Positions 149-21,710 of a stretch of DNA of 64,000 nucleotides are shown piece by piece. A program made the position numbers and the translations under genes. Source of the stretch: Arcanobacterium sp. (lineage in GTDB: Bacteria > Actinomycetota > Actinomycetes > Actinomycetales > Actinomycetaceae); assembly GCA_022783665.1 (NCBI GenBank), contig JALFZJ010000063.1, forward strand, positions 1 to 64,000, written 5' to 3'. The notes beneath the pieces were generated by a model. That model ran no database searches. It was not told the origin of the DNA and saw only the letters and a program-made list of their open reading frames with translations. How positions within the stretch are numbered: the stretch's first letter is position 1; each line of letters begins with the position of its first letter.

Positions 149-1486
149 GGCTAATACCCAAAAATTGTTGCTTATGACGGCGTGTCGTTAGCGTCCGGCC
201 CAGCCTTTGCGGATGTGGAGGCTGTCTTCCCAGGGTTGTTGGGTGTTGATAGCTTTATCGATTTCCACGGGCTCGTCAGGGGTGTCTTTGACGGGTTTAA
301 CTGCTGGGGGTGATGATGTTGCTTGCGAAGCTTTCTTGGGGTCTAGGGTCGATTGAGCGGTGGTAGAGCCAGTAGTCGATAGCGGTGAGCATATGCTCTT
401 GTGTCCAGCCCCGGTGAGCATACAGGAAGGCTTTCAGTGGCGAGTTCACGCCTCCTTCAAGCGGGTTAGTTGTTGAGGCGAGCTGGCTTGTTATATCACG
501 ATCCTTTTCAAGGAAGGCGAACAAGACTCCGTCTTTGACATACCGGTCTAGGGAACGTACTTGGGTGCGTGTGGGTTTGTGGGTGTGCCACCATTTCTTG
601 TTCTTGCGCGCGAAGGTGGGGATCTGGTCGGGTCTGACCTGGTCACGGTAGGTTTTCTCCTCAAGCCAGGTGTCGTAGAGTTCGTGGAAAATGGCGAGTT
701 TCTTTTGCCAAGCGATCGCCTCGTCGGTGGTGGTGATCTTGGTCAGGTCTAGCCCGAGGTGGTAGAGGGCTTTATGCTGCTGTGTTTTAGGCCGTATCGT
801 GGTGATGGTTCTAATGTTGCGTTGGATATGAACTAGGCAGCGTTGAATGCGCGTGGTTGGCCAGCATTCTTTAATCGCCGCGAGTGCCCCGGAATTACCA
901 TCAGTAACAACCATGATCGGGGCAGGAATACGTGACAGGAGCGCCCGGTAGGCTTCCTTATTTTCTTTGTGGCACAACTGGTAGGCGATCACCCCGGAGC
1001 TCGTGTAGGCCACCAGAGCACACCAGCCGTAGGGAATATAAGTCCCGTCTATGAAGACTTGATCATACACCTCACCCGTGACCTGCCAGATCGGGCGGGT
1101 CGACCAGCACCAGGCATGGTCACGATCCCACGTGGTTAAGGATTGCCTTTGGAGTCGCAGGGGTAGGGTGTCAGTGACGTAGGCAAGGAAGTGCCGAAAC
1201 TGTTTCTCCTTGGTCTGCCGGTCGTGTTTCGTGGTCGTGCTGTACCGGCAATCGGGGCAATACCAGCGTTGGCTACCAGAAGGATTCTTACCATTTTTCT
1301 TCATTGCTAGAGCGCATAAGGGGCATGTGCGAGCACGTGTACTTCGAGTTTTCACTCGACGTACATATACCGTGCAATGTCAAGGAAGGTAACGCTTTTA
1401 GCCCCCGTGACCTAAAAGACCACGACTTTACCCCGTCACAACAACGAAAAACCCAATCTTAAGCAACGATTTTTGGGCATTAGGCC
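149..1486 (-). mobile_element. IS1249-like insertion sequence (IS256-superfamily type), apparently complete
   Basis: Imperfect terminal inverted repeats: left GGCTAATACCCAAAAATTGTTGCTTA (from 149) versus reverse complement of right end GGCCTAATGCCCAAAAATCGTTGCTTA (ending 1486), flanking one transposase ORF. No obvious target-site duplication. Confidence 0.75.
297..1355 (-). CDS. IS1249-like transposase
   Basis: 352 aa; N-terminal CPLC...CPDC zinc-ribbon, FIDGTYIP and VVTDGNSG catalytic-type motifs, RCLVHIQRN, TNPLEGG C-terminal motif. Confidence 0.8.
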   Translation of the reverse strand: MKTRSTRARTCPLCALAMKKNGKNPSGSQRWYCPDCRYSTTTKHDRQTKEKQFRHFLAYVTDTLPLRLQRQSLTTWDRDHAWCWSTRPIWQVTGEVYDQVFIDGTYIPYGWCALVAYTSSGVIAYQLCHKENKEAYRALLSRIPAPIMVVTDGNSGALAAIKECWPTTRIQRCLVHIQRNIRTITTIRPKTQQHKALYHLGLDLTKITTTDEAIAWQKKLAIFHELYDTWLEEKTYRDQVRPDQIPTFARKNKKWWHTHKPTRTQVRSLDRYVKDGVLFAFLEKDRDITSQLASTTNPLEGGVNSPLKAFLYAHRGWTQEHMLTAIDYWLYHRSIDPRPQESFASNIITPSS

Positions 1487-1981: not shown

Positions 1982-2999
1982 CAGACTTACTAGCCACGTT
2001 GCTTTGATTTGGAACATCGCAGAGATTCTCCGTGGCGACTATAAGGAACACGAGTACGGCGACGTCGTGTTGCCTTTCACTGTGCTGACCCGACTCGATT
2101 CCGTTCTCGTGGATACGAAGCAAGCAGTCCTGAATATCAAGGCCACCTCCGTTCCGAGCAAGATCAAGGAGCTGCAGTACGTCAAGGCTACGGGCTACCC
2201 GTTTTGGAATACGTCGAACTTCACGCTCAAGACCTTGTTGGATGACCCGGACAATCTTGAGCAGAACTTGAGTTACTACGTGCAAGCGTTCGCGCCTGCC
2301 GCGCGTGAAGTGATGGAGGCGTACAGCTTCTACAACGTCATCGAACGCCTCGACAAAGCAGGCCTGCTGTATCAGGTGCTCAGCGAGTTCACGTCCTCAA
2401 AGGTTAACCTTCACCCTGACGTAGTCAGTAACGACCAGATGGGCTACATCTTCGAAGAGCTCATCCGCCGATTCTCCGAACTGTCGAATGAAACCGCTGG
2501 TGAACACTTCACCCCGCGCGAAGTCATAAGCTTGATGGTCAATCTTCTCTTCAATCCAGAAGAAGACATCAACCGGCTTTGTGCAGACGGTGCTATGGCG
2601 TCGCTGTATGACCCCGGGGTCGGCACCGGCGGAATGCTCTCGATCGCTGCGCAGCATGTTGAGGATCTGAATGACACTGCCCGCCTCGAGGTCTACGGGC
2701 AAGAGCTCAACCCGCAGACGTATGCGGTGGCTAAGTCGGACATCATGATCAAGGGCGAAAGCCAGGAACGCATCTACTTTGGCAACTCGCTCACCAATGA
2801 CCAGACGGCGGGCCTCCACTTTGACTACATGCTGTGCAAACGTTGGATTGAGACGTTGATACAAAATCGTAGTGTGTGCGATTATGTGCTGGCTGCGTGC
2901 AATAATGCCCTAGCACGCGAAATGCTAGGTCCGTGGCGATGCTGCGCTCACAGTTACACGAGTGGACCTTCCGCCATTTGCTTTGTTGGGAGCGCATGA
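1971..2999 (+). pseudogene. Type I restriction-modification methyltransferase HsdM, 3'-truncated
   Basis: GTG start at 1971 overlapping the antitoxin stop; HsdM_N-like N-terminus, FTPREVISLMV, SAM-binding DPGVGTGGM. Homology stops at FDYMLC just where the NPPY/F motif should follow (~2838); the tail is unrelated. Confidence 0.8.
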
Positions 3000-3082
3000 G
3001 GCAGCTATCGGACGGATTGTGCACCCAGACTTCCTCTTCGAATAACGGGCGTCAAAATGTTTGAGAAAGCGTCGAATTGTAT

Positions 3083-4219
3083 TCAGTGGCTATTGCTCGG
3101 AGGGGTCTGGAACCCATAGCTAATTGGAATGTATGGATCGTCTCGTAGCCTCTTTGTCAGGGTTTTGTCGTTGACGATTATGGCGACCGATGCTCTTGCT
3201 CTTGTGATCCCGACGTAGAAGAGGCAAGCGCTCTTATCGGCCAACGGTGTGCCGTCTGCAATCAGCTTGAGCATGGGATTGGTCGGAACAATGATTACCC
3301 TTTCGTAGGTAAGCCCCTTGACTGTTCCGATGTTTTTGAATTCCAGATCAATGAGGTGTTTGCCAGATGCCTTACTGGCCCGAAGGGGTATCGGATGATA
3401 CTTCTCGAGATAGGTTGCCAGGTGTCGTTCGTGCACCAGAAAGACACCGTCGTGTCCAGTTACCGTCTGATTTTGGGAGTTTGTTGGTGCAAAGCCGAGG
3501 TCACTGGGGAAAATACGGTCTGAGAAGTTAGCGATTTTCTGGTTTGATCGCCAGGTTTGACTTAGGTCTTTTACTGCAAGGCGACTCGCCGATTCGTATG
3601 TGCGGTACCAGTTGATCAGTGCTAGGCGATCTGCATTTCGGTTCTTCGTCGAAATTTGATCGCTATCAAGTAGCGATTGTCTGACATCACCAACCAAGAG
3701 TAGATGGGGTCTCGAACCATTTAAGAGTCTGTCGATGATATCGAGGCTTTTCCGGCTGATGTCTTGAACTTCGTCGATGATGATTTCGTCGTAGATGCGA
3801 GCTAGTCGATTTTCAACTGCGCCTTGCATCGCTTCGGCAATCTTGACCGCAAGCTCGGGCAGCATTTCTTTGTATATCGATCCATTTGAGGAGAAATAGC
3901 GCGGCATGCCACGTAACTTATAGAGGTCTTTTGGGTGCATTGCACGGTCAAAAATGAATCCTGTGGGGCGCGTGGCCGGGAATAGAATAGGCAGATATGG
4001 TCGGACGTAGTGTCGGATCAGGAATGCATACCATCCCATGACATCGGGCATCTGGGACTGGCTGCATGCTGTAGATAGTCGCGAAACGAGTTCCTCTTGC
4101 CCCGATTCAGTGAGTGTGATGACCAGCCGTCGCTTCTGATCATCCGGGTGAGCGCATCTTTGAACGATGAGCTCGGTCTTCCCAGCCCCAGCACAGGCGT
4201 GAACGAAGTTATGGATCAC
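3083..4219 (-). CDS. UvrD/Rep-like superfamily 1 helicase, short (GajB-like)
   Basis: 378 aa with GAGKT (motif I), IIIDEVQD (II), LLVGDVRQSL (III), QTWRSNQKI (IV), GTVKGLTYERVII (V), LFYVGITRA (VI). Confidence 0.75.
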   Translation of the reverse strand: MIHNFVHACAGAGKTELIVQRCAHPDDQKRRLVITLTESGQEELVSRLSTACSQSQMPDVMGWYAFLIRHYVRPYLPILFPATRPTGFIFDRAMHPKDLYKLRGMPRYFSSNGSIYKEMLPELAVKIAEAMQGAVENRLARIYDEIIIDEVQDISRKSLDIIDRLLNGSRPHLLLVGDVRQSLLDSDQISTKNRNADRLALINWYRTYESASRLAVKDLSQTWRSNQKIANFSDRIFPSDLGFAPTNSQNQTVTGHDGVFLVHERHLATYLEKYHPIPLRASKASGKHLIDLEFKNIGTVKGLTYERVIIVPTNPMLKLIADGTPLADKSACLFYVGITRARASVAIIVNDKTLTKRLRDDPYIPISYGFQTPPSNSH

Positions 4220-4221
4220 GA

Positions 4222-5856
4222 TTATCCACGTGCCCCGATCACGACGCTGCGAAGCGCGTTAATTGCGTCTTTGATGTATTCAGGAGGATTGAGCCTTTCT
4301 GGCGAAGTCGCAATTTTGAGCGCCGTAGCCGTCTTGTGGGTCGACATCCAATCCAAAAGGTCTGTCTCGTTGTCTATCCCGAGAACTGTTCGAAGCGTAT
4401 CTTCATGATTCGCCGACTTAATCTGATACTCGAGTGTCCTCCCTAAGTTGGGGTGGCCAACGAAGAGCTCACGTTCGTTGGGTTTTGTGAAGTCCTTTAT
4501 CTTGTCCTGCCAGTGTTCGGGGGTCTTTCCATCGTTGTCACGTAGCGCCACAAGTGGTCGATTCAGCACTGAAGCCAGCTCGAATCCTCGACGGAATGAG
4601 ACCCCACCGATTGATATGACGTCCACACCGTAGTCGAGAGGCTCAGCACCGTACTTATCGGCAAAGAATCTGTTGAAAACGATTTCGTCGGAAGGCCCTT
4701 CAACCAGCACGGCCTTTTTCGCCAGGACAAGTCGTAACGTGTCGAATCCAGAAAGCCTTTTGAAGTACTCTGACGTGGCATCGCTAAGATCTTGAAATGC
4801 ATGGGCGGTGCCCTCGTGTAGGAGAACCAGCTGGTCTAGGCCAAGGCGGTTGAGGACGTATGAGCTGTGGGTGGTGACGAGCACCTGCCGTCCCTCACGT
4901 GCTGCTGAAATATATGAAAGCAGCTCACGCAAGCTTGTATGGCTGAGGTGGTTCTCTGGCTCTTCAACCAGTAGATAGGCGGAAGATTCAGAGGACCGTC
5001 CCATCGCAAGAACCGTTTTCGCTATCGCCTGCGTTCCCTTGCCGGACTGGGAAAATGGGACCTTGTCTATTGCAGGCACCAAAGTGTTTGCCCATGATGA
5101 GGAGCGTGACTGATCGACTTGGATACCAAGCTTCAACCTGTCAAACGCGGAAAGATCCGAGCCCAACGCTCCGTCAAGCACCGTTAACAATCCGTCGCCT
5201 AATGATGCCCTCATTTTACGGTGCTCAACTGAGACGTGGTTGCGTACCTTAGGGTCAAGGCGTTCTTCGACGATCTGCCGGGTGTAGTAGTCCATACCTC
5301 GATCTGAACGAATCGTGCGCGTATCGATGACGGCAACCCCGAGTTCTTTGGGACGTCGATAAAGAACTTGGTCGGCAAAATCTCGCCAATCGAGGCGGTA
5401 GTACTCAACTGGGAGGATATGGGGACAATTTTCTTCTCGAAAGTACTGCTCAATCTCTTCCGAATAATCAGGGTCGGGATATGCGTGAATGCAAAGACCG
5501 ACGCTATCCTCCTTGAGCATGTTGTGAATGCCCCGCATCTTCTGGGATTCCCCGTTTGGAATCTCAAGATGTATATCGATACGAAACTCCGGAATCGCAG
5601 GAAGCGGATCGCCGGCCTTCGTATTAGAGAGTGCATCGAAGAAAGTGTCGACAAGTTCCATATTGAACCAATAGGGGTTGACCGCTTCACTCGCAGACAT
5701 CCCCTCGAACTTGCCAGTGAGTGCCATCGTGATCGCTTCGAGCAGAGTGGACTTACCCGCTTCATTCGCGCCTACGATGATATTCATTTCGCGGTGAGGA
5801 TTGAGAATTAGCTCTTTGAACTTTCGGTAGCCACGAATATGGACCTTCGCGATCAC
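4222..5856 (-). CDS. OLD-family ATPase with C-terminal TOPRIM nuclease (GajA-like)
   Basis: 544 aa; Walker A GANEAGKST, YLLVEEPENHLS, VTTHSSYVLNRL, TOPRIM AVLVEGPSDEIVFNRFF and ALRDNDG. Confidence 0.8.
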   Translation of the reverse strand: MIAKVHIRGYRKFKELILNPHREMNIIVGANEAGKSTLLEAITMALTGKFEGMSASEAVNPYWFNMELVDTFFDALSNTKAGDPLPAIPEFRIDIHLEIPNGESQKMRGIHNMLKEDSVGLCIHAYPDPDYSEEIEQYFREENCPHILPVEYYRLDWRDFADQVLYRRPKELGVAVIDTRTIRSDRGMDYYTRQIVEERLDPKVRNHVSVEHRKMRASLGDGLLTVLDGALGSDLSAFDRLKLGIQVDQSRSSSWANTLVPAIDKVPFSQSGKGTQAIAKTVLAMGRSSESSAYLLVEEPENHLSHTSLRELLSYISAAREGRQVLVTTHSSYVLNRLGLDQLVLLHEGTAHAFQDLSDATSEYFKRLSGFDTLRLVLAKKAVLVEGPSDEIVFNRFFADKYGAEPLDYGVDVISIGGVSFRRGFELASVLNRPLVALRDNDGKTPEHWQDKIKDFTKPNERELFVGHPNLGRTLEYQIKSANHEDTLRTVLGIDNETDLLDWMSTHKTATALKIATSPERLNPPEYIKDAINALRSVVIGARG

Positions 5857-8828
5857 GACGCCACCACCTGTTTGATCATGGCGACGATGTCGTCGTGTTT
5901 GAGCTGCGGGGAGAATTGGACGTTGATGTTTTCGTCGCTGATGGATTCGAAGAACTTCTTGGCGGCTTTGAACCGTAGCTTCTCTGATCCGCGCAGATCA
6001 GTCTGGGCGTTGACATCTTTGGTCTCGATGACGAAGTTCAGTGACGTTCTGCCGTCTGCGCCTTTGAGCACGTACATGAAGTCCGGGCTTGTGGTGCCGC
6101 CGAAATAGACGGGGATCCGGATGGAACGCCTCGGGATCTTGCCATAGACGACGACTTCATCGAGCACGTCAGAGTCTTGGATGTTGTCTTTCTCCTTCGG
6201 GGAATCGTAGACGAACGCGTCGTAGAGGAACTTGTCGGGAACGTTCGTGGTGGCATCACGGTAGATACCGATGTTGCCTTGCACGATGTCACGCAATGGT
6301 TGACCGTTCGGTTCGGTGAGCGCGGTGGCTCCCAGAGAGGCGTCGATGCGAGTGTAGGAGAAACGGTTGATGAACTCGCGCTGCATCCACTCGTGGAACT
6401 CGGTGACGAACTTGCCGAGCGTGGCCTTATTGAAGAACCCCTCCGGTAGCGGGCGCTTCGCGTTGTATCGCACGAGACCAGCATGGATCGCCTTGATCGG
6501 CAGGTAGGTTTGCAGATAAGCGGCCTTCAGCCAGTCTGCGTACGTGAGCGTGTCATCGATAGAGAACACAGCTCTGGTGGATGTTTTCGCGATCAGTTCG
6601 CCCTCATCGTCGCGCTCGATGGTCTCTTGCGTGAACCGTCCCGTCTGAGCGGTGTAGATGCCCGAGTCCAGAATCGTGTCGATACAGGCGTCGATTTCCT
6701 TGTCGATGAGATCTTCGAGGCGCAGGTAGTACTTGGCGTTGACCGCTTCCCACAGCTCTTTGAGCTCGGCGTAACGCCCGGGGCGGATACCGACCTTGGT
6801 TTTGGACTTGTTCGTCACGACCTTGTCAGGCTTGAGCTTGCCCACGTTGAACTGCGGGTAGCGATCCAAGAGCTCTTGCTCCTTGCCCTCAAGCACGTTG
6901 TAGTCACGATCGATGAGGTTGTGTGTGCGCCACAGGTCGAAGAACAAATCGTCTTCGCTCATACCGAGCTGGGCGGCAACCTTGGGCAAGAGGTCCTTCA
7001 CCGACGGTGCCGCAACCGCAACATCAGAGTTAATCTCGCTGATCAGGGAGTTAGCGAACGATTTTTCCGTGTAGTCAATCAGATAGGTCAGGTAGAACTG
7101 TTCGTGTGCGAGCCGGGTACCGCTAACATCCACAGGCAACCTCAGGCCACGCCCCACTTCCTGCAGCTTCGAAATCTCAGAGCCCGATGAGCGCAGCTTG
7201 ACGATCTGAAACACGTTGGGGTTGTCCCACCCTTCTCGCAGCGTCCACTTCGAGAAAATGAACCGCATCGTATTCGGCGTACCATCGGGGTTGGTGAACG
7301 AGAGCAGTGCTTGTTTGTCACGCAGAATCTGATCAACCTCAGCTTGGATCGCCTCATCACTGGAGGAATTATCCGCAGAGAAATAGCCACCGTTCGTGGC
7401 AGCCACATCCGCCAGTGACGCACGCAGATAGGCAAGATAGTCCTGGCCAACCGTCGAGGTGTCACCTGCGTGCTTATCGATGAGTTCTCTCAGTTTGGCA
7501 GTGAGAAGGTCATGGAAGCGCGCACGCAGATGACCTGGCCCGTCCTCGCCACGGTAGGACTCAATCGAGTCGATGAAAAACAGCGTGAGCGTCTTGACTT
7601 TGGTGGAGCGCCGGTAATTCTCCCACTCGGCCTCAAAGTGATTATCGAGAGCCTGCTTCATCATCACGCTCTGATACGTCTCCGAATACACACGCGCAGC
7701 CAGAATGTCGCCAGTGGCGAGGATTTGCCCGTTCGACAACGTGACACCGGATTTAATCAGCGCGTCCTCGGTCTTGCCCACACCGTCGATCGTGATTCCC
7801 GCGAAATCGCCATCTACATCGCCAAGAGACTCACCCACCCGTAGCGTGTTGGACTTGCCGGTATCGAGGTTGTTGAACGTCGCGCTCTTCGGCTTTGAAC
7901 GCGACATTCCGGTGAGTTTCAGCCGCACAGACTCGCTACCGTCGTCTTGGGGGTATTGGATCGCCACACCCTTGACGAGCTGCTCGTTGAACGCTTCAAC
8001 CGAGCCGAGGTTGAACACGAGATTGTTGTAATCCGTCGCCCCGGACTTATCCAGCTTCGGGAAAGTCGCCCCGAAACGGAAAATCGCTTGCGGCTGGATC
8101 TGATCGAGGAGTACCTGGTAGGCCTTATTCTCGCGCCGGAACCGGTGCGGCTCATCAATGATCACCACAGGCCTGGTCATCGCCAACGCCTCATAGGGCT
8201 GGCTCGACATCCCCAGCACCGACTGGTCATACACCGCCGCCATCGTCGCCTTCGACTGCAACATCCCATCAGTCATCAACAACGCACTGATCCGTCCCTT
8301 CGCCAGCCTCGAGGCTTGTACGAAATTCGAAATCGCCGAGGGGAACATCTTCCGGCCCTTGCGTCGCTTCTGCGGATCCAGCACCTCCAGATCCAACTTG
8401 AAACGCCCACCGTAGGTGTCATCAAAATACTGGCGGGCATAGTCCGCCTTCATAAACGACCGGGTACCTTCCTTAATCGGAGTCGACGGCACCAAAATGA
8501 TGAACTTGTGGAACCCGTAGAGCCGGTACAGCTCAAACATCAGCTGCGTATACACCAAGGTCTTACCCGTGCCGGTCTCCATCTTGATATCCACACCCAG
8601 CACACCATCATCAGTGCGGGTACGCCACGAGCGCGGCACCGCCGCCACGCCCTCAACAGCCCCGGCCTGCAACTGCGAAATATTGTGCGCAATCTGCGGA
8701 TCACCCACATCAAACACCGGGTTCGCCTCCGACGGAGAAGCAAGACTCACATCAACATCCGTGAACACGCCCGTCGCTGCGACAAGTGCACGCTGCTGGT
8801 GATCGAGCGTTTGAAGCCTGATCTGCAT
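5853..8828 (-). CDS. Type III restriction endonuclease Res subunit
   Basis: 991 aa; DIKMETGTGKTLVYTQL Walker A, VVIIDEPHRFR, FSKWTLREGWDNPNVFQI helicase motif, C-terminal FVIETKD nuclease-like motif; downstream of mod. Confidence 0.92.
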   Translation of the reverse strand: MQIRLQTLDHQQRALVAATGVFTDVDVSLASPSEANPVFDVGDPQIAHNISQLQAGAVEGVAAVPRSWRTRTDDGVLGVDIKMETGTGKTLVYTQLMFELYRLYGFHKFIILVPSTPIKEGTRSFMKADYARQYFDDTYGGRFKLDLEVLDPQKRRKGRKMFPSAISNFVQASRLAKGRISALLMTDGMLQSKATMAAVYDQSVLGMSSQPYEALAMTRPVVIIDEPHRFRRENKAYQVLLDQIQPQAIFRFGATFPKLDKSGATDYNNLVFNLGSVEAFNEQLVKGVAIQYPQDDGSESVRLKLTGMSRSKPKSATFNNLDTGKSNTLRVGESLGDVDGDFAGITIDGVGKTEDALIKSGVTLSNGQILATGDILAARVYSETYQSVMMKQALDNHFEAEWENYRRSTKVKTLTLFFIDSIESYRGEDGPGHLRARFHDLLTAKLRELIDKHAGDTSTVGQDYLAYLRASLADVAATNGGYFSADNSSSDEAIQAEVDQILRDKQALLSFTNPDGTPNTMRFIFSKWTLREGWDNPNVFQIVKLRSSGSEISKLQEVGRGLRLPVDVSGTRLAHEQFYLTYLIDYTEKSFANSLISEINSDVAVAAPSVKDLLPKVAAQLGMSEDDLFFDLWRTHNLIDRDYNVLEGKEQELLDRYPQFNVGKLKPDKVVTNKSKTKVGIRPGRYAELKELWEAVNAKYYLRLEDLIDKEIDACIDTILDSGIYTAQTGRFTQETIERDDEGELIAKTSTRAVFSIDDTLTYADWLKAAYLQTYLPIKAIHAGLVRYNAKRPLPEGFFNKATLGKFVTEFHEWMQREFINRFSYTRIDASLGATALTEPNGQPLRDIVQGNIGIYRDATTNVPDKFLYDAFVYDSPKEKDNIQDSDVLDEVVVYGKIPRRSIRIPVYFGGTTSPDFMYVLKGADGRTSLNFVIETKDVNAQTDLRGSEKLRFKAAKKFFESISDENINVQFSPQLKHDDIVAMIKQVVAS

Positions 8829-8831
8829 GAA

Positions 8832-10784
8832 CTAGAACCTCTCGATCACATCAACGGTCTTGCCCGACTTCAACACAGCCAGATTCTTCTTCAACTCATG
8901 CATCACCGAAAACTCAACCGAGTACCCAAACACCACCACCCGTGACAGCTCCAACTCGCCACTCTCAAGGAGGCGAACCAGAGCCACAACATCGTCACTC
9001 GTCAAACCCGTATCGATGATGTAGCCAGAATCCCCGCACACATCAAGCTCGTAACCAGCCAGCGTCACCTTCTTAGGTGATGCCGTGAGCCCAAAACCAT
9101 CCTTCACCAGCCACGTCGCCAACACCGTGTCATGCCCGGGCGTGCCATTCAAATCGAATTTCGACACATAATCCCCAGAGAACAGCGCATCTGTATTGTC
9201 TGGGTCAAAACGCTCCAGCTGATCCAGAACCTGACCAGACGGCTCCTCCAAACGATACAACCGGAACCCATAATCAATATCCGCGCCCGTCTCATCCTTA
9301 ATCTTCGCCGCAGCACGCTTAATACGCTCACGACCAATCTCGTCAATAGTGCGATAACCGGCGTGATAAGCACGTTTTCCTGCGTCGATCTTCTCGGGCA
9401 ATTGAACCATGACATATTTGCGCGTGCCGACGTCGGCCGAATTAAGTTGCATCACGGCATCCGCAGTTGTTCCAGAGCCAGAGAAAAAATCGACAATTGT
9501 GTCTCCTGGTCGGCTCCCTATTTCAATGATTCGTTTCAACAATGGCGTTGGTTTCGGGAAACTAGCAGCATCCGCTTCTAGCAGAGTCTTAACTTCCTGA
9601 GTGCCAACCTGCTGATTGAAGCCCTTATCATCCCAGATGCTAAATACTTTGCGTGTTCTTTGATCGCCTGATCCACGGCGTAAATAATCTTTGACAAAAA
9701 TGTCAAATTCGTTACGTTTTGTAATGAGCTTAGCCACCAGTTTGTCACTTTCCAGACGGCTTTTCTGTTCACCCCACATCCATCTCCCGTCACGCCCGTC
9801 GCTTTTTTTGGGAACTACGGATACCCATCCAGGTTTCGGATCTAAGGAGACTTTCAAGGAATCAGGGCATACATAAATCGGAAAGAACATCTCTGGGCGA
9901 TCTTCCCTGAGCGAGGCGACACCTCGTTGCCTCAGACCTAAAAGACGGTACTTTCCATTCTCGTCTGCAAAATTGAATTCTTCTTCCTCATTTTCAGTGA
10001 GCGGCCGCCCAGATAACTCGACCGCTTCACTTGAGCGTGCATAAACCAAGATGTAATCATGTGAGGGAGCAATCGAAGAATTGGACTGCCGACCGCGCGG
10101 ATTATTCTTTACCGATATTTGAGCCAAAAACCCCTGTTCCCCAAAGATTTCATCGCATAGAAGTTTCAGATCAGACTGCTCATTATCGTCGATACTTATA
10201 AAGATAACGCCGTCATCAGCGAGGAGTTCCTTGGCGAGTTGGAGGCGTGGATACATGAAGGTAAGCCACGCGGAGTGCGAGGATTTTCCTTGGAGGTCAA
10301 GGACGCGTTCTGCTTCGTCTTCGCTCAGACCGATCTTGTCGACGAGGTTCGCGGGCGTGAATCCAAAGTCGTCGTTGTAGACAAAGCCGTCCGAGCCGGT
10401 GTTATAGGGCGGGTCGATGTAGATACATTTGACCTTGCCCGCGTAGGAGCCGAGGAGGTGTTTGAGGGCGTCAAGGTTGTCACCGACGATGTAGAGGTTC
10501 TCGGACTCTCGGTTCTCTGGCTCAGCGTTGTGCTTAAGATCGGGCACGACCACGGTTTCGGTCTCCGTTGAAGTCAAATACTTGGCGTACGATTTGCCGA
10601 GGAATCTCAGCTCGTAGCCTTCCTTCGTGAGATTGACGTCGCCGTTCTGGAGGCTTTCTTGGAGTCGGTCGAGCATGAAGTTGCCGTCTTTATCGAAGTA
10701 CTCCGGCAGCGCTGCGCGGAGTCGTTCGATCTCAAAGTCGTTCGGGGTGACGGTTTCGTTGTGTTGGCGTGCATCGCGGATCAT
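8832..10784 (-). CDS. Type III DNA methyltransferase Mod (beta-class order)
   Basis: 650 aa; CIYIDPPYNTGSDGF (DPPY) precedes TIVDFFSGSGTTADAV (FxGxG). Confidence 0.92.
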   Translation of the reverse strand: MIRDARQHNETVTPNDFEIERLRAALPEYFDKDGNFMLDRLQESLQNGDVNLTKEGYELRFLGKSYAKYLTSTETETVVVPDLKHNAEPENRESENLYIVGDNLDALKHLLGSYAGKVKCIYIDPPYNTGSDGFVYNDDFGFTPANLVDKIGLSEDEAERVLDLQGKSSHSAWLTFMYPRLQLAKELLADDGVIFISIDDNEQSDLKLLCDEIFGEQGFLAQISVKNNPRGRQSNSSIAPSHDYILVYARSSEAVELSGRPLTENEEEEFNFADENGKYRLLGLRQRGVASLREDRPEMFFPIYVCPDSLKVSLDPKPGWVSVVPKKSDGRDGRWMWGEQKSRLESDKLVAKLITKRNEFDIFVKDYLRRGSGDQRTRKVFSIWDDKGFNQQVGTQEVKTLLEADAASFPKPTPLLKRIIEIGSRPGDTIVDFFSGSGTTADAVMQLNSADVGTRKYVMVQLPEKIDAGKRAYHAGYRTIDEIGRERIKRAAAKIKDETGADIDYGFRLYRLEEPSGQVLDQLERFDPDNTDALFSGDYVSKFDLNGTPGHDTVLATWLVKDGFGLTASPKKVTLAGYELDVCGDSGYIIDTGLTSDDVVALVRLLESGELELSRVVVFGYSVEFSVMHELKKNLAVLKSGKTVDVIERF

Positions 10785-11023
10785 TGTGCGTTCTCCTGTT
10801 CGTTAGGGACGACTTCGCAGATGTCGGCGATGTCGCAGTTGAGTGCTTGGCAGATTTTCACGAGGACGGTTGTGGTCACGTTTTCGTCGCGGCCGAGCTT
10901 GGCGATTGTTGCTCCTGATAGCCCGGTCATGTGGCGGAGGTCTTGTTTTTGTAGGTCTTTGTCGATGAGGAGTTTCCAGAGTCGTTTGTAGGTCACGCTT
11001 CGGGTGGAGGGGTTGGTCATCAC
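10781..11023 (-). CDS. XRE/Cro-type helix-turn-helix regulator
   Basis: 80 aa; YKRLWKLLIDKDLQKQDLRHMTGLSGATIAKLGRDENVTTTVLVKICQALNCDIADICE, typical HTH_26/XRE pattern; 4-nt overlaps with both neighbours. Confidence 0.85.
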   Translation of the reverse strand: MMTNPSTRSVTYKRLWKLLIDKDLQKQDLRHMTGLSGATIAKLGRDENVTTTVLVKICQALNCDIADICEVVPNEQENAQ

Positions 11024-12855
11024 TGTTCCTCTTCTGCGACGTCGTAGACGTCTAGTAGGTAGCCGTAGCGGCCTTGCGTTTTACTCTTGGAAAACTCGAT
11101 GAGTGTCGTATCGGGCGAGTATTCGAGTCCCACGGTGCGATCGGTGTTTTCTAGGATGATGATTTGCTGGTCTTTGGCTTGTTGGGCGAAGTAGTCGAAG
11201 AGTCCGGCACGCATGGACGCGTCAGGGCTGTGGTGGCCTTCGTCGAAGCCGTGTAGGGGCGTGTCGATCAGGAGGAATCCTGGCGCGTGGGGTGATCTGC
11301 GGTTCATGAAGGCGTGGAATGCGAGTGCGACGATAGTGTTGAAGAAGGCGCAGTAGCCTTTGCCTTGCTCGTCGGCTTTGGCGTACCCGGCGATTTCGAC
11401 GTCGAAGACTTGCCGGTCGAATGCTGCCGCGTGGGCTCCGGGGAAGTTCGCCTCGGCCAAGATGCGTTGTATAGAGCGGGTCATTGAGTAGTAGAAGTCG
11501 CCGTCGAAGTGTTCGCGTGGTTTGAATTTCTCGAGGCCTGTGGTGTCGGTTTCGTCGCCACCGTCGAGTGTGTGTTCGAAACGGCGCACGAGCTTCGTGA
11601 GTTGTTCCTGTTCAGCTTTGATGTTCTGGGCGGCGGCGAGGCTTTTGATCTGTTCCTTGATGCTGCGTGTGGCTGGATTCAGGTCGCGGTTCAACTGTGT
11701 CATCAGCTGGTTGTGGGCAGCCTTGTTGCGCAACTGCTCCTCTGTGAGGGTGGTGATGCGGTTGCCGAGTTGGTCGAGGTCGTTGGCAGCATCGTGGCGG
11801 AGGTGCCGTATGCGCGTGATCTCGTTTTCAAATGCCGCGATTTCACCATCGGTTGGTGGTGCCGCATCGATGCTGCTGTGACAGAACTGGCAGGTATCCG
11901 GGTGTGGATGTTCCCGGTCGTGGAGCATGCCTTGGAGTTGGAGATCGAGGCGTGCAAGGTCTGCATCGTATTGGGTGATGAGGGTGCGTCGCTGTTCGCT
12001 GGCCACCTGAAGGATTTCGAGGCTCTTGGTTTGGTCACTGATGGCCGCGATGAGCGTGGTGTCTTTGGCCAGGATGTCCTGGCGTTGTTGTTGGAGTTGT
12101 TCGAGCTGAGTTTGAAGGTTCTTCAGATATGCCTCGATGGTGGTGCCTTCGGCGGCGGCTTGCGCTTCGGCTTGTTCCAGCTCGGCGAGCCGTGTGTGGA
12201 TGATGTCGAGCTGTTGATAGATGTATCGCTCGATTGCTTTGCGGCGCGCCCGTTTCTCGGAGTCGCTTTCTCGTGAGGTAGCGTCGTCAAAATTCTCGCC
12301 TTGGGCGAGCACGAGGAGCGCTGAGAGGTCTTGGGTTTGTGACTGCGATTTCGACGAGTGCGGCAGCAAGATTGAGGGCTTTGGTCGTCCAATTTCGCTT
12401 TCAGGAACCAGCAGGACGTGTTGGATTGCTTTCCATGAGAAGCGAACTTTCCTGAAGGCTTCATTCGCGATGACCTTGCGGCCGGGCCCGATTCCAAGCA
12501 GCCCGATGAGGAGGTCGTTGAGGGGTTTCTTGCCAGTGTTGCTCAGCGTATAGGTTCCGCTGTCGATAGCTGGGTCAGTGGACTCGACGATCACGCTTGA
12601 GCCTGGCTTGGTTGAGCGGGACAGGGTGACCTCACCGCGGGGTGTGGCGAATGTGACGAACGCGGTGGTGTATCCGGTCTTGTCGGTGAATGGCAGTCCG
12701 TCGCCACCACAGGCGTAGGCGATCGTTTTCACGATCCTCGACTTGCCCGTGTTGGACGGGCCAACAATGCAGTTCAAGCCGGGCGCGAGATCGATGGTCG
12801 AGGTGGTGCCGTCGTCCCTGGTGGCTTTGACCTGTCGGATCCACAACTTACCCAC
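11020..12855 (-). CDS. SMC/Rad50-like AAA ATPase, probable ABC-three-component ATPase
   Basis: 611 aa; Walker A VGPSNTGKSRIVK, coiled coil interrupted by CQFC zinc-hook-like motif, Walker B FLLIDTPLHGFDEG. Confidence 0.8.
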   Translation of the reverse strand: MGKLWIRQVKATRDDGTTSTIDLAPGLNCIVGPSNTGKSRIVKTIAYACGGDGLPFTDKTGYTTAFVTFATPRGEVTLSRSTKPGSSVIVESTDPAIDSGTYTLSNTGKKPLNDLLIGLLGIGPGRKVIANEAFRKVRFSWKAIQHVLLVPESEIGRPKPSILLPHSSKSQSQTQDLSALLVLAQGENFDDATSRESDSEKRARRKAIERYIYQQLDIIHTRLAELEQAEAQAAAEGTTIEAYLKNLQTQLEQLQQQRQDILAKDTTLIAAISDQTKSLEILQVASEQRRTLITQYDADLARLDLQLQGMLHDREHPHPDTCQFCHSSIDAAPPTDGEIAAFENEITRIRHLRHDAANDLDQLGNRITTLTEEQLRNKAAHNQLMTQLNRDLNPATRSIKEQIKSLAAAQNIKAEQEQLTKLVRRFEHTLDGGDETDTTGLEKFKPREHFDGDFYYSMTRSIQRILAEANFPGAHAAAFDRQVFDVEIAGYAKADEQGKGYCAFFNTIVALAFHAFMNRRSPHAPGFLLIDTPLHGFDEGHHSPDASMRAGLFDYFAQQAKDQQIIILENTDRTVGLEYSPDTTLIEFSKSKTQGRYGYLLDVYDVAEEEQ

Positions 12856-13270
12856 GGTTCACCCCCGCGTGCTGGACTCGATCGACGACAGTATTAACGC
12901 CGAGTTCAATGAGCCGGGCAACCGACTCCGTGTACGCCTGGGCGTAGTCACCTCGCAAGGAGCTTGAATACTCCTGGCAGGCGGTGGTTGGCGAGAAGGT
13001 GATGCCGTTGTCAGGGGTCTCGGCGAGGCCAGTGCGCACGAGGCGCGCCAGGCCTTCGTGGACGCGGCGGCGACGGGCATCGTATTCCGCTGCCGCATAT
13101 GGCGTATCACCGTGAAGGCTGCCGCTGCCGAAGCCGAAGGGTTTCATGTAGGTCGCGGCGAGATCGATTGAGGTGATTTCATCCAAGGTTGCCGGGCACG
13201 GCAGGTGAGGTAAGCACATTGCCAGACGCGTCGCGGTCTCTGCCGGGGTGTTGAACAGGCTAGTTGTCAT
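12848..13270 (-). CDS. Probable ABC-three-component middle component
   Basis: 140 aa, sits between and overlaps the ATPase and the ABC-3C CTD gene; assignment mostly by position and size. Confidence 0.55.
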   Translation of the reverse strand: MTTSLFNTPAETATRLAMCLPHLPCPATLDEITSIDLAATYMKPFGFGSGSLHGDTPYAAAEYDARRRRVHEGLARLVRTGLAETPDNGITFSPTTACQEYSSSLRGDYAQAYTESVARLIELGVNTVVDRVQHAGVNRG

Positions 13271-14303
13271 CGCGGATCACCCAGTGCAGCTGGTCGTCGT
13301 TGACGAGCATGTGGCACATGCCCTTTTTGTGAGTTGCTCGCACCATGGAGGGGAACTTCACCAAGACTGATCCTGTCAACGCGAAGTCGGCGGCCGTGGT
13401 GAGTGTCGCGTTCATCCGCAGGTAGCCGTCGTCGTAGTCGGCTTCACAGACCTCGATTACTCCATCACACAGATCGTCTTTCATCGCGGAGAACTCCATG
13501 TCACCGTCGGGTAGCAGGTCGCGCAGGTTACGCCGAACTCCCTCGGCATCCCAGAAATGACCACGCTGACGCGCGTAGGCCTTCTGATATTTCTCCGGCA
13601 GATCGGCCGCATTCACGATTCTCACGCCGAGGTGTTCTTCCAACGCGGCGAGGATCGCTGTCGTATAGCCAGACTCAACCGTTGGGTCTGGTACATCGGG
13701 GACGTCCGGTGGCGGTTTCCACGGCAAGGACGACGAGCCGAGGTGTAGCTTACCGCCGCTGATTCGTCCTTCAGCCAGCGGCAGGTTGGTGAACAAGTCG
13801 AGTTGAGGTTGTGGTGCCAGGCCGTCGGCAAGAAGGTCACGATCGTTGCTGTTGGCCCACAGGATTTCTTTCAGCCACGGGCCGATCGCCGCCGGGACGT
13901 CAGCGGCGGTGTGGACGTTGATGCTCGCCATCACGAGTTGACGTTGGAAGGTCGCCAGAGCATCGATACCAATCTCATCGCAGAGTTCTTCGACCTTGCT
14001 CACATCAAGATGATTGTGGAAATCCCGCGCTTTCCATGCAGGCAATTTCCGCTCCCCGTTGAAATAGCGCACCAGGTCGGTTTGGTTCACGCCTGCCCAA
14101 ACCCCTGCTGTGATCGAGGTCTTACCAGGAGGCCTCGTTTTCTCATGTTTGGAGGTCTCAACGAAGACGGTCTCTTTGTCCATCACCGCATCAAAGAAGT
14201 CCATCATGAAGCCCTTCTTCGTGCGAGAAACACCGGACATAAACGGTTTGACGGTGCGGCAGAACGCGCCAAGCGCGAAGTGAGGATCAGCCTGTTCAGC
14301 CAT
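13260..14303 (-). CDS. ABC-three-component C-terminal-domain protein
   Basis: 347 aa; C-terminal KAYARQRGHFWDAEGVRRNLRDLLPDGDMEFSAMKDDLCDGVIEVCEADYDDGYLRM resembles the ABC-3C CTD pattern (FY.AE.LR...RD.LP...F..L..D..DGV). Confidence 0.65.
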   Translation of the reverse strand: MAEQADPHFALGAFCRTVKPFMSGVSRTKKGFMMDFFDAVMDKETVFVETSKHEKTRPPGKTSITAGVWAGVNQTDLVRYFNGERKLPAWKARDFHNHLDVSKVEELCDEIGIDALATFQRQLVMASINVHTAADVPAAIGPWLKEILWANSNDRDLLADGLAPQPQLDLFTNLPLAEGRISGGKLHLGSSSLPWKPPPDVPDVPDPTVESGYTTAILAALEEHLGVRIVNAADLPEKYQKAYARQRGHFWDAEGVRRNLRDLLPDGDMEFSAMKDDLCDGVIEVCEADYDDGYLRMNATLTTAADFALTGSVLVKFPSMVRATHKKGMCHMLVNDDQLHWVIRDDN

Positions 14304-14935: not shown

Positions 14936-15559
14936 ATGAAGCTCACGATCACATCAGAACCCATCAGTAACTACACCGGCGCGAAGGCACGTATCGACCG
15001 TGACCTGGAAGCCACGCCTGAGGAAGTGGCAGCGATGATCGCCACCGACCTCAAACAGCGCCAACAAGCAGCCGCCGACCCGTCAACCGTCCAGCCGCGC
15101 ACAGCCCAGGCCATTGTCACCGAGCTCGGGCGCGATGAGTACAACGCGTGGCACACGTTGTGGCGGCAAGACCGTAACAAGGATGTGTTGTGTTCCTGGG
15201 AGGTGTGGAACGCCCACGGCAACCAGGGCCTTTATGTTACGGCCTCGGCAGAAGACCAATATTTCGCTGCCGAAGAGGAACGCACTCGCGAAGCCCTCAT
15301 GGCGCTGATTGAGCAGCTGATCGGCGGACTGCCAGAGGTGCAGCGCGCGGTGGCGATCGCGATCCTGGTTGAGCGCCGCCCGGCGGTCGAGGTCGCTGCC
15401 GAGCGTGGAGTGAACAAGGCGGCCGTTTCACAGGCATTGAAGCGAGCAAAAGAGACCCTCATCCGCAGGCTTAGGGAGGTGGGTGTTAACTCTTCGTCGG
15501 TTTCTGGCCTTCAGTTGAGCGACACAGAGCGTGGCGCTCAGGAAGGAAAGAACCGATGA
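14936..15559 (+). CDS. Phage-type sigma factor-like HTH protein
   Basis: Preceded by GCGGAGGAGCC; C-terminal sigma-70 region 4-like LPEVQRAVAIAILVERRPAVEVAAERGVNKAAVSQALKRAKETLIRRL. Confidence 0.65.
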   Translation: MKLTITSEPISNYTGAKARIDRDLEATPEEVAAMIATDLKQRQQAAADPSTVQPRTAQAIVTELGRDEYNAWHTLWRQDRNKDVLCSWEVWNAHGNQGLYVTASAEDQYFAAEEERTREALMALIEQLIGGLPEVQRAVAIAILVERRPAVEVAAERGVNKAAVSQALKRAKETLIRRLREVGVNSSSVSGLQLSDTERGAQEGKNR

Positions 15560-15810
15560 GTACCAAGCTCAAGCTCCGGGTCGGCAAGAAGCCTGATCCG
15601 AAGGCGACGATCTCGACCAAGGAAATCCGAGCCAGCAAGCACCTGATCCGTCAGATCTTCGGCACCGCGACACCGCGCCACAAGATGGCCATCATCTTGC
15701 CTGGCGCTGACACCACCGAAGTTGACGTGCGCATCGCCAACGCTGCCGTTGACGATCTCATGGCACTGGCCCGCGCGGTCGGCGCCACCCGTGGTGGTGA
15801 TCAGCAATGA
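15556..15810 (+). CDS. Hypothetical phage-module protein
   Basis: 84 aa ORF, 4-nt overlaps with flanking ORFs. Confidence 0.6.
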   Translation: MSTKLKLRVGKKPDPKATISTKEIRASKHLIRQIFGTATPRHKMAIILPGADTTEVDVRIANAAVDDLMALARAVGATRGGDQQ

Positions 15811-16229
15811 ATATCGCCGAAGCAAACCGTTTCATTACCGCGTTGAACCTGATTGCTGAAGGGGCGACGATGCTCGCCCTGGCGATTGAAGAATCCGCCT
15901 GGGAGAACTTCGAAGACCACGCTGGCATGCCCGGCACACGTCCGATCGCGGCTGCTCGGCTTGCGCAGCCCGCTCTCGAGGAGGCCGCCGAGGAGTACGA
16001 CACCACCCACCAACCAGCGAACCAGGTACCCGATCAAGAGCCAGCGAAGGCTAAGGAGTTGGTGTCGTTGGAGCAGGTACGTGCTGTGCTCGCCAAGCTG
16101 TCGCAGGCAGGCCACACCGCCAAGGTGCGCGAACTGATCCAGGGCGCTGGTGCGGCCAAGCTGTCCGATGTTGATCCGGCCAAGTATGGGTGGTTGCTGT
16201 CACGGGCGGAGGCGATTGCCGATGCCTGA
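15807..16229 (+). CDS. Hypothetical phage-module protein
   Basis: 140 aa, overlaps both neighbours; C-terminal region VRAVLAKLSQAGHTAKVRELIQGAGAAKLSDVDPAKYGWLLSRAEAI as in phage replication-cluster proteins. Confidence 0.6.
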   Translation: MNIAEANRFITALNLIAEGATMLALAIEESAWENFEDHAGMPGTRPIAAARLAQPALEEAAEEYDTTHQPANQVPDQEPAKAKELVSLEQVRAVLAKLSQAGHTAKVRELIQGAGAAKLSDVDPAKYGWLLSRAEAIADA

Positions 16230-17364
16230 CCAACACGCGATGCTCAGTGCTTCTGGTGCACACCGATGGCTGGAATGCCCACCATCCGCACGGTTGGAAG
16301 CCGAACTGCCGGAGTCCTCCTCGCAGGCTGCCGAGCAAGGAACCGCCGCGCACGCTCTGGCGGAGTGGAAGCTACGCCGCGCCCTCCACGACGCTCCCAC
16401 CACCCGGCCGGTCTCGAACTGGCATGACGCGGAGATGGAGACCCTGACCGAAGACTATGTGGCGTTTGTTCAGGAGCGGCTGCGGGACGTGCGTGAATCG
16501 TGCGCGGATCCGACCGTGCTGATCGAGCAGCGCCTGGATTTCTCGCATGTGGTGCCGGGCGGGTTTGGGACGGGTGACTGCGTGATCATCGCCGAACCCA
16601 TGCTCCAGATCATCGACCTCAAGTACGGCCAGGGCGTCCTGGTTGAGGCTGAGCACAACCCGCAGCTCATGCTCTACGCACTCGGTGCGCTGAACGCGTT
16701 CGGGTCGCTGTATGACATCGACGACGTGGCAGTGACGATCTACCAACCCCGGCGAGCCAACATCTCCACCTGGCACGTCACCGTGGCGGAGCTTGAGGCG
16801 TGGGCGGCCGAGGTCGTGAAACCAACCGCCACGCTCGCAGCTAGCGGGGATGGTGAGTTTGCCTCTGGTGAGTGGTGCCGGTTCTGCAAACTCAACCCAA
16901 CCTGCCGAGCCCGCGCCGATGCCAACCTCGCGCTGGCCAGGCATGAGTTCGCGCCCCCTGCTGAGCTCGACGACGACGAGATCGCGGCTGTACTTGCCCA
17001 GTTGCCGGATCTGAAGGCTTGGGCGGCGGACGTCGAAGCCTACGCATTGTCGCTGGCGGTCAATCAGGGCAAGACCTGGTCGGGTTTCAAGCTCGTCGAA
17101 GGCCGCTCGATCCGCAAATACGCCGACGAGGCCGCTGTCGCCCAGGCCGCTGAGGCTGCCGGGGTCAGCGATATCTACGAGCGCAAGCTCAAGACCATCA
17201 CCGCCCTCGAGAAACAGCTCGGCAAGAAGCGGTTCACCGAACTGTTCGGTGACCTCGTGGTCAAACCTGCAGGCAAACCCGCCCTGGTTCCCGAATCCGA
17301 CAAGAGGCCCGCACTGGAGATCCAGTCAGCAACAGACGAATTCACTCCAATTTCAACGAAGTAA
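16222..17364 (+). CDS. DUF2800 family, PD-(D/E)XK-type phage nuclease
   Basis: MPDQHAMLSASGAHRWLECPPSARLEAELPESSSQAAEQGTAAHALAEWKLR; IIDLKYGQGVLVEAEHNPQLMLYALGAL; WCRFCKLNPTCRARA cysteine motif. Confidence 0.85.
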   Translation: MPDQHAMLSASGAHRWLECPPSARLEAELPESSSQAAEQGTAAHALAEWKLRRALHDAPTTRPVSNWHDAEMETLTEDYVAFVQERLRDVRESCADPTVLIEQRLDFSHVVPGGFGTGDCVIIAEPMLQIIDLKYGQGVLVEAEHNPQLMLYALGALNAFGSLYDIDDVAVTIYQPRRANISTWHVTVAELEAWAAEVVKPTATLAASGDGEFASGEWCRFCKLNPTCRARADANLALARHEFAPPAELDDDEIAAVLAQLPDLKAWAADVEAYALSLAVNQGKTWSGFKLVEGRSIRKYADEAAVAQAAEAAGVSDIYERKLKTITALEKQLGKKRFTELFGDLVVKPAGKPALVPESDKRPALEIQSATDEFTPISTK

Positions 17365-17389
17365 CCAATAGAAAGAAGGTAAGACAAGC

Positions 17390-17941
17390 ATGTCTACAAC
17401 TAATCCGACCCGCGTGGTCACCAATGAGGTCCGCCTCTCCTACGCCAACATTTTCGAAGCCAAGAGTATTCAGGGTGGTAAGCCCAAGTACTCCGTGTCG
17501 CTCATCATCCCGAAGTCCGACACCGAGACCTTGGCCAAGATCGAGCGGGCCATCGATGCCGCAATCGATGCTGGTATCGGCAAGTTTGGTGGCAAGCGCC
17601 CGAACAAGGCTGCCCTCAAGCTGCCGCTGCGTGACGGCGACATCGAGCGTGACGACGAAGCGTATGCGGATGCGATGTTCGTCAACGCCAACTCCACCAC
17701 ACCACCCCAGGTCGTCGGCACCGACCTGCAGCCGATCCTTGATGCGAGCGAGGTGTATTCGGGCTGCTACGCCCGCGTCTCCATCTCCTTCTATGCGTTC
17801 AACACGAACGGGAACAAGGGTATCGCGTGCGGGCTGGGCAACATCCAGAAGCTCCGCGACGGCGAACCCCTCGGCGGCAACCGCATCAGCGCTGAGGACG
17901 ACTTCGGGGCCTTCACAGCCAGCGACGACTTCCTCAACTAG
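17390..17941 (+). CDS. DUF2815 family, probable ssDNA-binding protein
   Basis: Characteristic TNEVRLSYANIFEAKSIQGGKPKYSVSLIIPKSDTET and C-terminal SAEDDFGAF. Confidence 0.85.
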   Translation: MSTTNPTRVVTNEVRLSYANIFEAKSIQGGKPKYSVSLIIPKSDTETLAKIERAIDAAIDAGIGKFGGKRPNKAALKLPLRDGDIERDDEAYADAMFVNANSTTPPQVVGTDLQPILDASEVYSGCYARVSISFYAFNTNGNKGIACGLGNIQKLRDGEPLGGNRISAEDDFGAFTASDDFLN

Positions 17942-17957
17942 AAGAAAGGTAACAACC

Positions 17958-18149
17958 GTGTTTTGGACTGTTTTTAACGCCATCACTCTTGCACTGTGGG
18001 TGTATGTGCTGATCCCGTTCTACGTAGTGTGGTTCGTTGAATGGCTGAAGGATAAGCGCGCGATCTGCAAGGACCGCCAGCGCATTGACCAGCTCATGGC
18101 TGATGCCGAGGCTGAGCGCGAGCAGTACCGCACGCCCACCAACCCATAA
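17958..18149 (+). CDS. Small membrane-associated hypothetical protein
   Basis: GTG start; 63 aa with one hydrophobic segment TVFNAITLALWVYVLIPFYVVWFVEWL and a charged tail. Confidence 0.5.
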   Translation: MFWTVFNAITLALWVYVLIPFYVVWFVEWLKDKRAICKDRQRIDQLMADAEAEREQYRTPTNP

Positions 18150-18225
18150 ATCATCACCCCTGGCCGGGAGAGCATCCATCACGGTGGGTGTTCTCCCGGC
18201 CCTTACCTCTTGTGGAGCCGTTACC

Positions 18226-20187: not shown

Positions 20188-20414
20188 TCCGCGTACACGC
20201 TCCCCAGGTATTCTCCTACAAGCGCATAGAGTTTGTCAGCGCAGGGACGGGTGTCGGTGCGTACGCGGTATGACCATTCGAAGATCATCTCGTCGTCCAT
20301 CAAATCCAGCAGCGTCATGACTGTTGACTTATCCATGCCCACATTCTTCGGTTCGATTCCTTCAAGCTTCCACGGGGTATACCCGGCTTTCTGATCTGAG
20401 CTAAACATTTCCAC
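20184..20414 (-). CDS. Small hypothetical ORF, opposite strand in phage module
   Basis: 76 aa, fills the gap between polA and the antirepressor; no family recognised. Confidence 0.3.
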   Translation of the reverse strand: MEMFSSDQKAGYTPWKLEGIEPKNVGMDKSTVMTLLDLMDDEMIFEWSYRVRTDTRPCADKLYALVGEYLGSVYAD

Positions 20415-20499
20415 CGTCGTCGGCAGTGAAGTGAGAGCCGTAAAACTTGTGCGCCAACCGGCGCAATTTGCCTATGTGGCTCTCAGGAAGGAGCCGATC

Positions 20500-21267
20500 A
20501 TGGCTGCCACAATTTTGCAGACGTTCACTAGCGATACCTTCGGAACAATCCGAACTATCGAGCAGGAGGGCGCGGTCTATTTCTGTGGCCGGGACGTCGC
20601 CACCGCCCTCGGATACGTCAACACGAAAGACGCTCTGGCACGTCACTGTAAGGGGGTCGTGAAACACTACCCCCTTAACACCGCTGGCGGTATCCAGCAG
20701 GTCAGGTTCATTACCGAGGGTGACCTGTACCGGCTGATCATGTCCTCCAAGCTCCCGGCCGCGCAGCAGTTCGAGGCTTGGGTGGTTGATGAGGTGTTGC
20801 CGACAATCCGCCGCCACGGCATGTACGCGATCGACGAACTCCTGGCCAACGACGAATTCTTTGAGCGGGCAATCGTGCAGCTGCGGGCCGAGCGAGCCAA
20901 GCGGCTGGCCGCCGAACAAGCCTTGCTTGAGGCTGCCCCGAAGATTTCCTACTACGACATCGTGTTGCAGTCAGACTCGTTGCTGACGACGACCGAAATC
21001 GCCAAAGATTACGGGCTTTCGGCGAAGCGGATGAATCAGATTCTGCATGAGCAGGGGGTGCAGTTTCGCCAGTCCGGCCGCTGGTTCCTCTACGCCAACT
21101 ATGCGGAGCAGGGCTACACCCAGTCCAAAACCCACGAGTACAACGAGGGTAAAACCCGCACCCACATGTACTGGACGCAAAAGGGCCGCCTGTTCATCTA
21201 CGACCTGCTGAAGAACCAGCTCGGTCTGCTGCCCGTCATTGAGCAGGACTGCGGTGATGTTCAATGA
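20500..21267 (+). CDS. Phage antirepressor (BRO-N plus KilAC-like)
   Basis: RBS AAGGAG; VYFCGRDVATALGYVNTKDALARHCKGV, FITEGDLYRLIMSSKLPAAQQFEAWVVDEVLPTIRRHGMYA, then KilAC-like C-terminus. Confidence 0.9.
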   Translation: MAATILQTFTSDTFGTIRTIEQEGAVYFCGRDVATALGYVNTKDALARHCKGVVKHYPLNTAGGIQQVRFITEGDLYRLIMSSKLPAAQQFEAWVVDEVLPTIRRHGMYAIDELLANDEFFERAIVQLRAERAKRLAAEQALLEAAPKISYYDIVLQSDSLLTTTEIAKDYGLSAKRMNQILHEQGVQFRQSGRWFLYANYAEQGYTQSKTHEYNEGKTRTHMYWTQKGRLFIYDLLKNQLGLLPVIEQDCGDVQ

Positions 21268-21710
21268 CTGCCACTGTTTTGTCGAGCCTGGATGTGGGGT
21301 TTTCGCCCCGCAACACAAAGGGCTACCCCGATCCGACAGCGTTCAAAGCACTGAAAAACGTGCAGCGGGCCGAGTATGGCTACCGGCCCTTGGTCTACAT
21401 CTGCTCGCCCTATTCGGGTGACGTGGAAGCGAACGTAGTACTGGCGCGCGCGTTCTGTGCACATGCCGTAGCTAAGTGCAAGATTCCGTTGGCTCCGCAC
21501 CTGCACTATCCCCAGTTCATGAACGATGATGATCCATCTGAGCGGGAGTTGGCGATGTTCTTCAACCGAATTCTTCTAAGCAAGTGTGAGGCGATCTGGG
21601 TCTACACCGCCCGCGTGTCGGCGGGCATGCGCGTGGAGATCGAGTGGGCACGCCACCTCGACCTACCCGTGAAGTACTTTTCGGCCGATTTTGAGGAGGT
21701 CGCCCTATGA
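21264..21710 (+). CDS. DUF7768/DUF4406-like (nucleoside deoxyribosyltransferase-like) phage protein
   Basis: RPLVYICSPYSGDVEANVVLARAFCAHAVAKCKIPLAPHLHYPQFMND...ERELAMFFNRILLSKCEAIWVY. Confidence 0.7.
   Translation: MTATVLSSLDVGFSPRNTKGYPDPTAFKALKNVQRAEYGYRPLVYICSPYSGDVEANVVLARAFCAHAVAKCKIPLAPHLHYPQFMNDDDPSERELAMFFNRILLSKCEAIWVYTARVSAGMRVEIEWARHLDLPVKYFSADFEEVAL

Follow-up and report, generated by a model that had tools for sequence, protein, structure and literature searches.

The 64,000 nucleotides (nt) analysed here (hereafter the window; contig JALFZJ010000063.1 of an Arcanobacterium sp.) carry, on the minus strand between positions 3083 and 14303, eight closely packed defence genes in the order lmuA, lmuC, lmuB, xre, mod, res, gajA and gajB, i.e., a Lamassu-type cassette of the ABC-three-component (ABC-3C) kind, an XRE regulator, a type III restriction-modification (R-M) pair and a short Gabija-like pair. 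The reading that we favor, with fair rather than high confidence, is that a composite operon arose from a type III R-M core (xre-mod-res) through the addition of separately inherited modules, lmuACB genes at its front and short gajAB genes behind it, the two additions acting as layered backups. The gene content, the order found in two genera, the half-arrangements built with different R-M types, the exchange of the front cassette inside xre and that of the Mod specificity are what rests on the present analysis. Each of the parts is known; their combination is recurrent, modular and undescribed as far as the literature was searched, no description of the eight-gene layout having been found in a search that most subscription papers lay beyond.

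The first-pass annotation had placed eight minus-strand open reading frames (ORFs) here in this order and with tight junctions, all of which were found where it had put them (−11, −8, −4 (or −1), −4, +3, −4 and +2 nt from lmuA to gajB), and the identities it had given to the modules, an ABC-3C cassette, an XRE protein, type III R-M and an OLD/UvrD pair resembling Gabija, are borne out by strong profile matches for every gene. The cassette begins with lmuA (13260-14303; 347 amino acids, aa), whose product ends in a CTD6 domain (Pfam, 1.2e-37; PADLOC LmuA, 5e-51) and has an N-terminal domain modelled as all-helical and without recognisable effector; it continues with lmuC (12848-13270; 140 aa), an ABC-3C middle component (Pfam MC2, 4.6e-21; PADLOC LmuC, 4e-20), the CTD6 and MC2 matches both exceeding the Pfam cut-offs, and with lmuB (11020-12855; 611 aa), a Rad50/SMC-like ATPase (PADLOC LmuB, 4.7e-143) having an intact Walker A motif and CxxC hook (C322xxC325) and a Walker B motif, LLIDT at residue 528, in which the expected catalytic Glu is replaced by Thr. 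The regulator gene linking lmu and R-M, xre (10781-11020; Pfam HTH_26, 1.7e-19), encodes 79 aa if translation begins with the ATG at 11020, a start that has a better ribosome-binding site and changes the lmuB/xre junction from −4 to −1. The R-M pair comprises mod (8832-10784; 650 aa; PADLOC MTase_III, 9e-174; Pfam N6_N4_Mtase and T3RM_EcoP15I_C), a type III DNA methyltransferase with intact DPPY and FxGxG (as FSGSG) motifs, in whose gene phase-variable repeats were looked for and none was found, and res (5853-8828; 991 aa; NCBIfam NF012027, 1110 bits, E=0; Pfam ResIII and RE_endonuc), a type III restriction enzyme with intact helicase and nuclease motifs (TGTGKT, DEPH, VIETK). Behind them lie gajA (4222-5856; 544 aa; PADLOC GajA, 7e-162; Pfam OLD-like_TOPRIM and AAA_15/AAA_21), coding for an OLD-type ABC ATPase with a TOPRIM domain (VEGPSDE and DND intact), and gajB (3083-4219; 378 aa; PADLOC GajB, 7e-91; Pfam UvrD-helicase above cut-off), coding for a short UvrD-like superfamily 1 helicase whose motifs are likewise intact.

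Within the family of the window 215 genomes were sampled, and a search with GajA as the query was positive in four other genomes. One of these (G459), belonging to another genus, has the identical eight genes in identical order and with similar overlaps, so that a unique, one-off arrangement is ruled out and the order, being repeated in a second genus, is not attributable to chance; the idea of a composite operon put forward in the first-pass annotation is upheld by this finding, and the neighbourhood comparison that it had proposed reveals conserved co-occurrence of the modules both in G459 and in recurring half-arrangements. Indeed, in G522 mod-res is followed by a broken gajA-gajB, in G579 gajAB directly precedes type I hsdM-hsdS, and in G583 a DUF3800-HTH_26 fusion leads type I hsdR-hsdM-hsdS and then gajA-gajB (L084, 6424-15620), joined by overlapping junctions, which amounts to a type I counterpart of the composite without lmu. 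A same-strand R-M system, of type III or type I, thus adjoins GajA in 5/5 family genomes that carry it. Sampling across the phylum (399 genomes for each query) added a single genome to the GajA matches and one to those of LmuB, and the eight-gene layout is consequently sampled within the family.

The comparison of the two eight-gene operons reveals their mosaic origin. From downstream of gajB to xre the window and G459 are 79-83% identical in DNA over 2838-9362 and 10134-10991, the intervening gap (9362-10134, minus strand) corresponding to the central, specificity region of Mod, which is exchanged between them; the shared segment includes the stretch 3′ of gajB (2838-3082), with a blastn identity of 82.7% from 2838. 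At the front, protein identity is 26% for LmuA, 26% for LmuC and 29% for LmuB, and in the LmuB tree the two cassettes fall in well-separated clades. The switch between parental sequences lies at approximately nucleotide 145 of the 234-nt xre gene of G459, where a one-crossover fit accounts for 81/85 informative sites and none of 10,000 shuffles did as well (0/10,000); in G611, too, similarity to G459 starts within the end of xre. To judge from these alignments, the G459 operon owes its different front module to recombination inside xre.

As to the sources of the cassettes, that of G459 matches a viral-collection contig (L172) over 4.5 kb with 90.8% identity, the lmu genes being followed there by a 339-aa gene; in a related locus (L164) this place is occupied by a 340-aa N6/N4 DNA methyltransferase, of which we take the former to be the counterpart. 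The closest relatives of the LmuA and LmuB of the window (80% and 74% identity, respectively) are found at 8553-11839 of another such contig (L154, IMGVR_UViG_2558860221_000002), at whose extreme end they lie, the following genes being cut off. Since these relatives stand at the end of a viral-collection contig, cassettes of the type carried by the window probably travel at the edges of prophages.

The composite is real but not indivisible, as a single eight-gene system would be: lmuABC and XRE-mod-res-gajAB have different histories and the modules can be separated. In G611 and G529 close relatives of Res stand without gajAB or lmu next to them, and at the majority of short gajAB loci no R-M genes lie within reach (~10 kb), a situation for which a single fused system would be too strong a description. 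In G454 a Schlafen-type gene takes the gajAB slot behind a related res; at this locus (L130, 6960-17599) the Schlafen AlbA_2 gene overlaps the end of res and a SIR2 gene lies upstream.

In the 14 loci where short gajAB has an R-M gene within ~10 kb, the two are on the same strand and no more than 410 nt apart in 11 cases. The R-M label changes at least nine times on the GajA tree, so that a single lineage of R-M-linked GajA is ruled out. The corresponding survey of LmuABC of the present class was made on family loci, plasmid records, one further phylum genome and 25 viral-collection contigs, after collapsing near-copies. In 15/32 assessable loci the next co-oriented genes are those of an R-M system of type I, II or III, the sets encountered being type III, type I, Eco57I-type and N6/N4 methyltransferases and a type III set led by a helicase and DUF4391; in several of the 15 (L133, L142, L144, L146) Lmu or R-M genes are damaged or incomplete. 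Among the 15, lmuB is followed by a recognisable XRE gene in 11 loci, vs 3/17 of the others (Fisher p=0.004). With at least six changes of R-M label on the LmuB tree a single lineage of R-M-linked LmuB is also ruled out, and the two trees taken together, on both of which we assigned the R-M labels from similarity searches, indicate that the coupling to R-M arose or was lost repeatedly.

Two further layouts were seen in the course of this survey. In G530 (L132, 3784-17187), as well as in L162 and L165, LmuABC-XRE is followed by a SNF2-type helicase, DUF4391, a Schlafen-like gene, Mod and Res, the helicase matching the PADLOC candidate C3a139. On the Enterococcus durans plasmid pEDNV (L146, 6707-15156) LmuABC and a helix-turn-helix (HTH) gene precede type I R-M genes disrupted by an IS30-like element, which extends the LmuABC-XRE-R-M layout to the Bacillota.

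How the modules might act together can be outlined as follows. All eight genes would be co-expressed and xre would time or limit the expression of R-M; Mod would methylate self sites and Res would cut unmodified incoming DNA; the Rad50-like LmuB, together with GajAB, would react to cut or injected phage DNA by way of its ends or repair intermediates, so that both modules would serve as layered backups once a phage evades or survives restriction. Ends are created by restriction, and either accessory module could therefore be a response to phage DNA that has been restricted or has resisted restriction; linear DNA ends are where Gabija acts, phage end-binding proteins providing the licence (PMC12407980), and a sensing of ends or hairpins has been suggested for Rad50-like LmuB (PMC10586767). 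The scheme of the first-pass annotation, in which Mod may mark self while the ABC ATPase and OLD/UvrD serve as further effectors, is a conjecture; no known effector domain is seen in the LmuA of the window. Concerning the transcript, promoter-like sites are not more frequent than in shuffled sequence (5 vs 5.5 expected) and terminator-like sites slightly more so (17 vs 11.5, sd 3.5, both strands), counts not clearly above those of the shuffles, and the sole minus-strand promoter-like site lies at 14447-14420.

Several points weigh against layered backups. In published experiments Gabija did not act on generic injected ends when end-binding proteins were missing (PMC12407980), so that cutting by restriction may by itself be insufficient as a trigger; all eight genes are found in this layout in two genomes only and the modules are often found apart; a single crossover is resolved; and the null for adjacency, a uniform placement giving ~4.6% per locus in the case of short gajAB, is rough and, because defence genes cluster, lenient.

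An alternative, which we regard as possible but doubtful, is that the locus reflects the ordinary packing of a defence island: three independent, self-sufficient systems would be stacked on the same strand, devoid of functional interaction and favored by selection only because they are transcribed together or transferred jointly. Each module works alone in published systems, R-M does not adjoin short gajAB in most of its loci or LmuABC in about half, and close Res relatives do without one or both modules, as seen above. However, the adjacency is immediate and co-oriented instead of loose, the overlapping junctions are kept in both G459 and G583, the coupling was repeated independently, as the label changes on the trees indicate, and XRE is found preferentially where LmuABC meets R-M.

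The remaining possibilities concern the N-terminal part of LmuA (approximately residues 10-152), which is predicted to be all-helical with a mean predicted local distance difference test (pLDDT) score of 84 and 83. No Pfam domain was found in it, no conserved catalytic residues emerged from an alignment with 17 relatives and solved structures yielded no significant match to its model; a search of LmuA for a known nuclease by Pfam, alignment, PDB sequence profile and fold was negative, and solved Lamassu LmuA chains are among the fold matches of the whole protein, below significance. The LmuA of the window has thus no recognisable effector and may work through the R-M or Gabija nucleases. A generalization of this idea, in which an effector-less ABC-3C/Lamassu class would be a plug-in sensor for R-M operons of any type, with XRE as the conserved joint for exchange of the front cassette and the downstream restriction and Gabija nucleases as effectors, is in our opinion unlikely. 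That the genes form one integrated machine, whose LmuABC, lacking an effector of its own, senses for the downstream R-M and here also Gabija nucleases, is somewhat less likely still: in its favor are the above findings on the N-terminus, and the three CTD6 LmuAs with Mrr-like nuclease matches (L173, L175, L177) all lack an adjoining R-M, but this contrast involves three cases only and is not significant (0/3, Fisher p=0.23), the Mrr matches are weak and below the Pfam cut-off, many loci with helical LmuA also lack an adjoining R-M, and LmuA may hold an unrecognised effector fold.

The lmu part of the operon has a GC content of 58-60% and the remainder 49-57%. On the downstream side a Phd/YefM-like antitoxin gene and a truncated type I hsdM occupy 1718-2999 of the plus strand, and the hsdM frame departs from its family match near 2838, where the similarity to the defence operon of G459 starts, as if an older type I R-M locus had received the defence genes by insertion. 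A transposase exceeding the NCBIfam IS1249 cut-off is encoded at 297-1355 (minus strand), ~1.7 kb downstream of gajB, and a transposase-like stretch, judged by eye only, is present downstream of gajB in G459 as well (L081, ~5566-6562). Upstream of lmuA, an ORF at 14679-14296 (minus strand), considered as a ninth gene, has zero matches in Pfam, PADLOC and NCBIfam and is probably spurious. Divergent from the operon, the plus-strand genes at 14936-25294 (sigma/KorA-like, DUF2800, DNA polymerase A, BRO/ANT antirepressor, primase-helicase and a shortened helicase) are prophage-like replication genes, probably a prophage remnant; close phage relatives of this flank were sought by DNA among phage records and no match was found.

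What tools such as PADLOC would score as three separate systems can belong together as a single unit that is ordered and exchangeable. Should the modules cooperate, cleavage by R-M would trigger defence of the Lamassu and Gabija types, a testable answer to how these systems are activated and to the clustering of defence genes; an effector-less LmuABC working through R-M, if true, would be new. Through the XRE joint, R-M operons have a concrete way of gaining and swapping accessory modules for defence, comparable to the auxiliary effectors reported for BREX (bacteriophage exclusion).

Compared with known systems, the front cassette has the components of Lamassu/ABC-3C systems of the CTD6 and MC2 type, namely an LmuA with CTD6, an MC2-type LmuC and a Rad50-like LmuB with CxxC hook, all with full-length PADLOC matches, but differs in that its LmuA has no recognisable effector domain at the N-terminus and that it heads an R-M operon via an XRE gene; moreover, the Walker B Glu is replaced as in the described LmuB cases, where the substitute is Gln (PMC10586767), yet here by Thr. 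Mod and Res are, as in other type III systems, both full length with intact motifs, but stand between two other defence modules and are preceded by an XRE gene overlapping both its neighbours. The Gabija-like pair has the expected class 2 OLD nuclease (ATPase and TOPRIM) adjoining a UvrD-like helicase, and GajA and GajB are the best PADLOC matches; unlike typical Gabija, it belongs to the short-GajB subgroup (378 aa), its gajA overlaps res by 4 nt and its GajA is distant from the solved Bacillus cereus protein (27 bits). Finally, BREX operons contain auxiliary and backup effectors, among them OLD/TOPRIM nucleases (PMC12839542), and thus share with the window a modification-based core accompanied by backup nucleases in one operon; in the window, on the other hand, the core is a type III R-M system and the accessory modules are placed at both ends, one of them being an ABC-3C cassette exchanged via the XRE gene.

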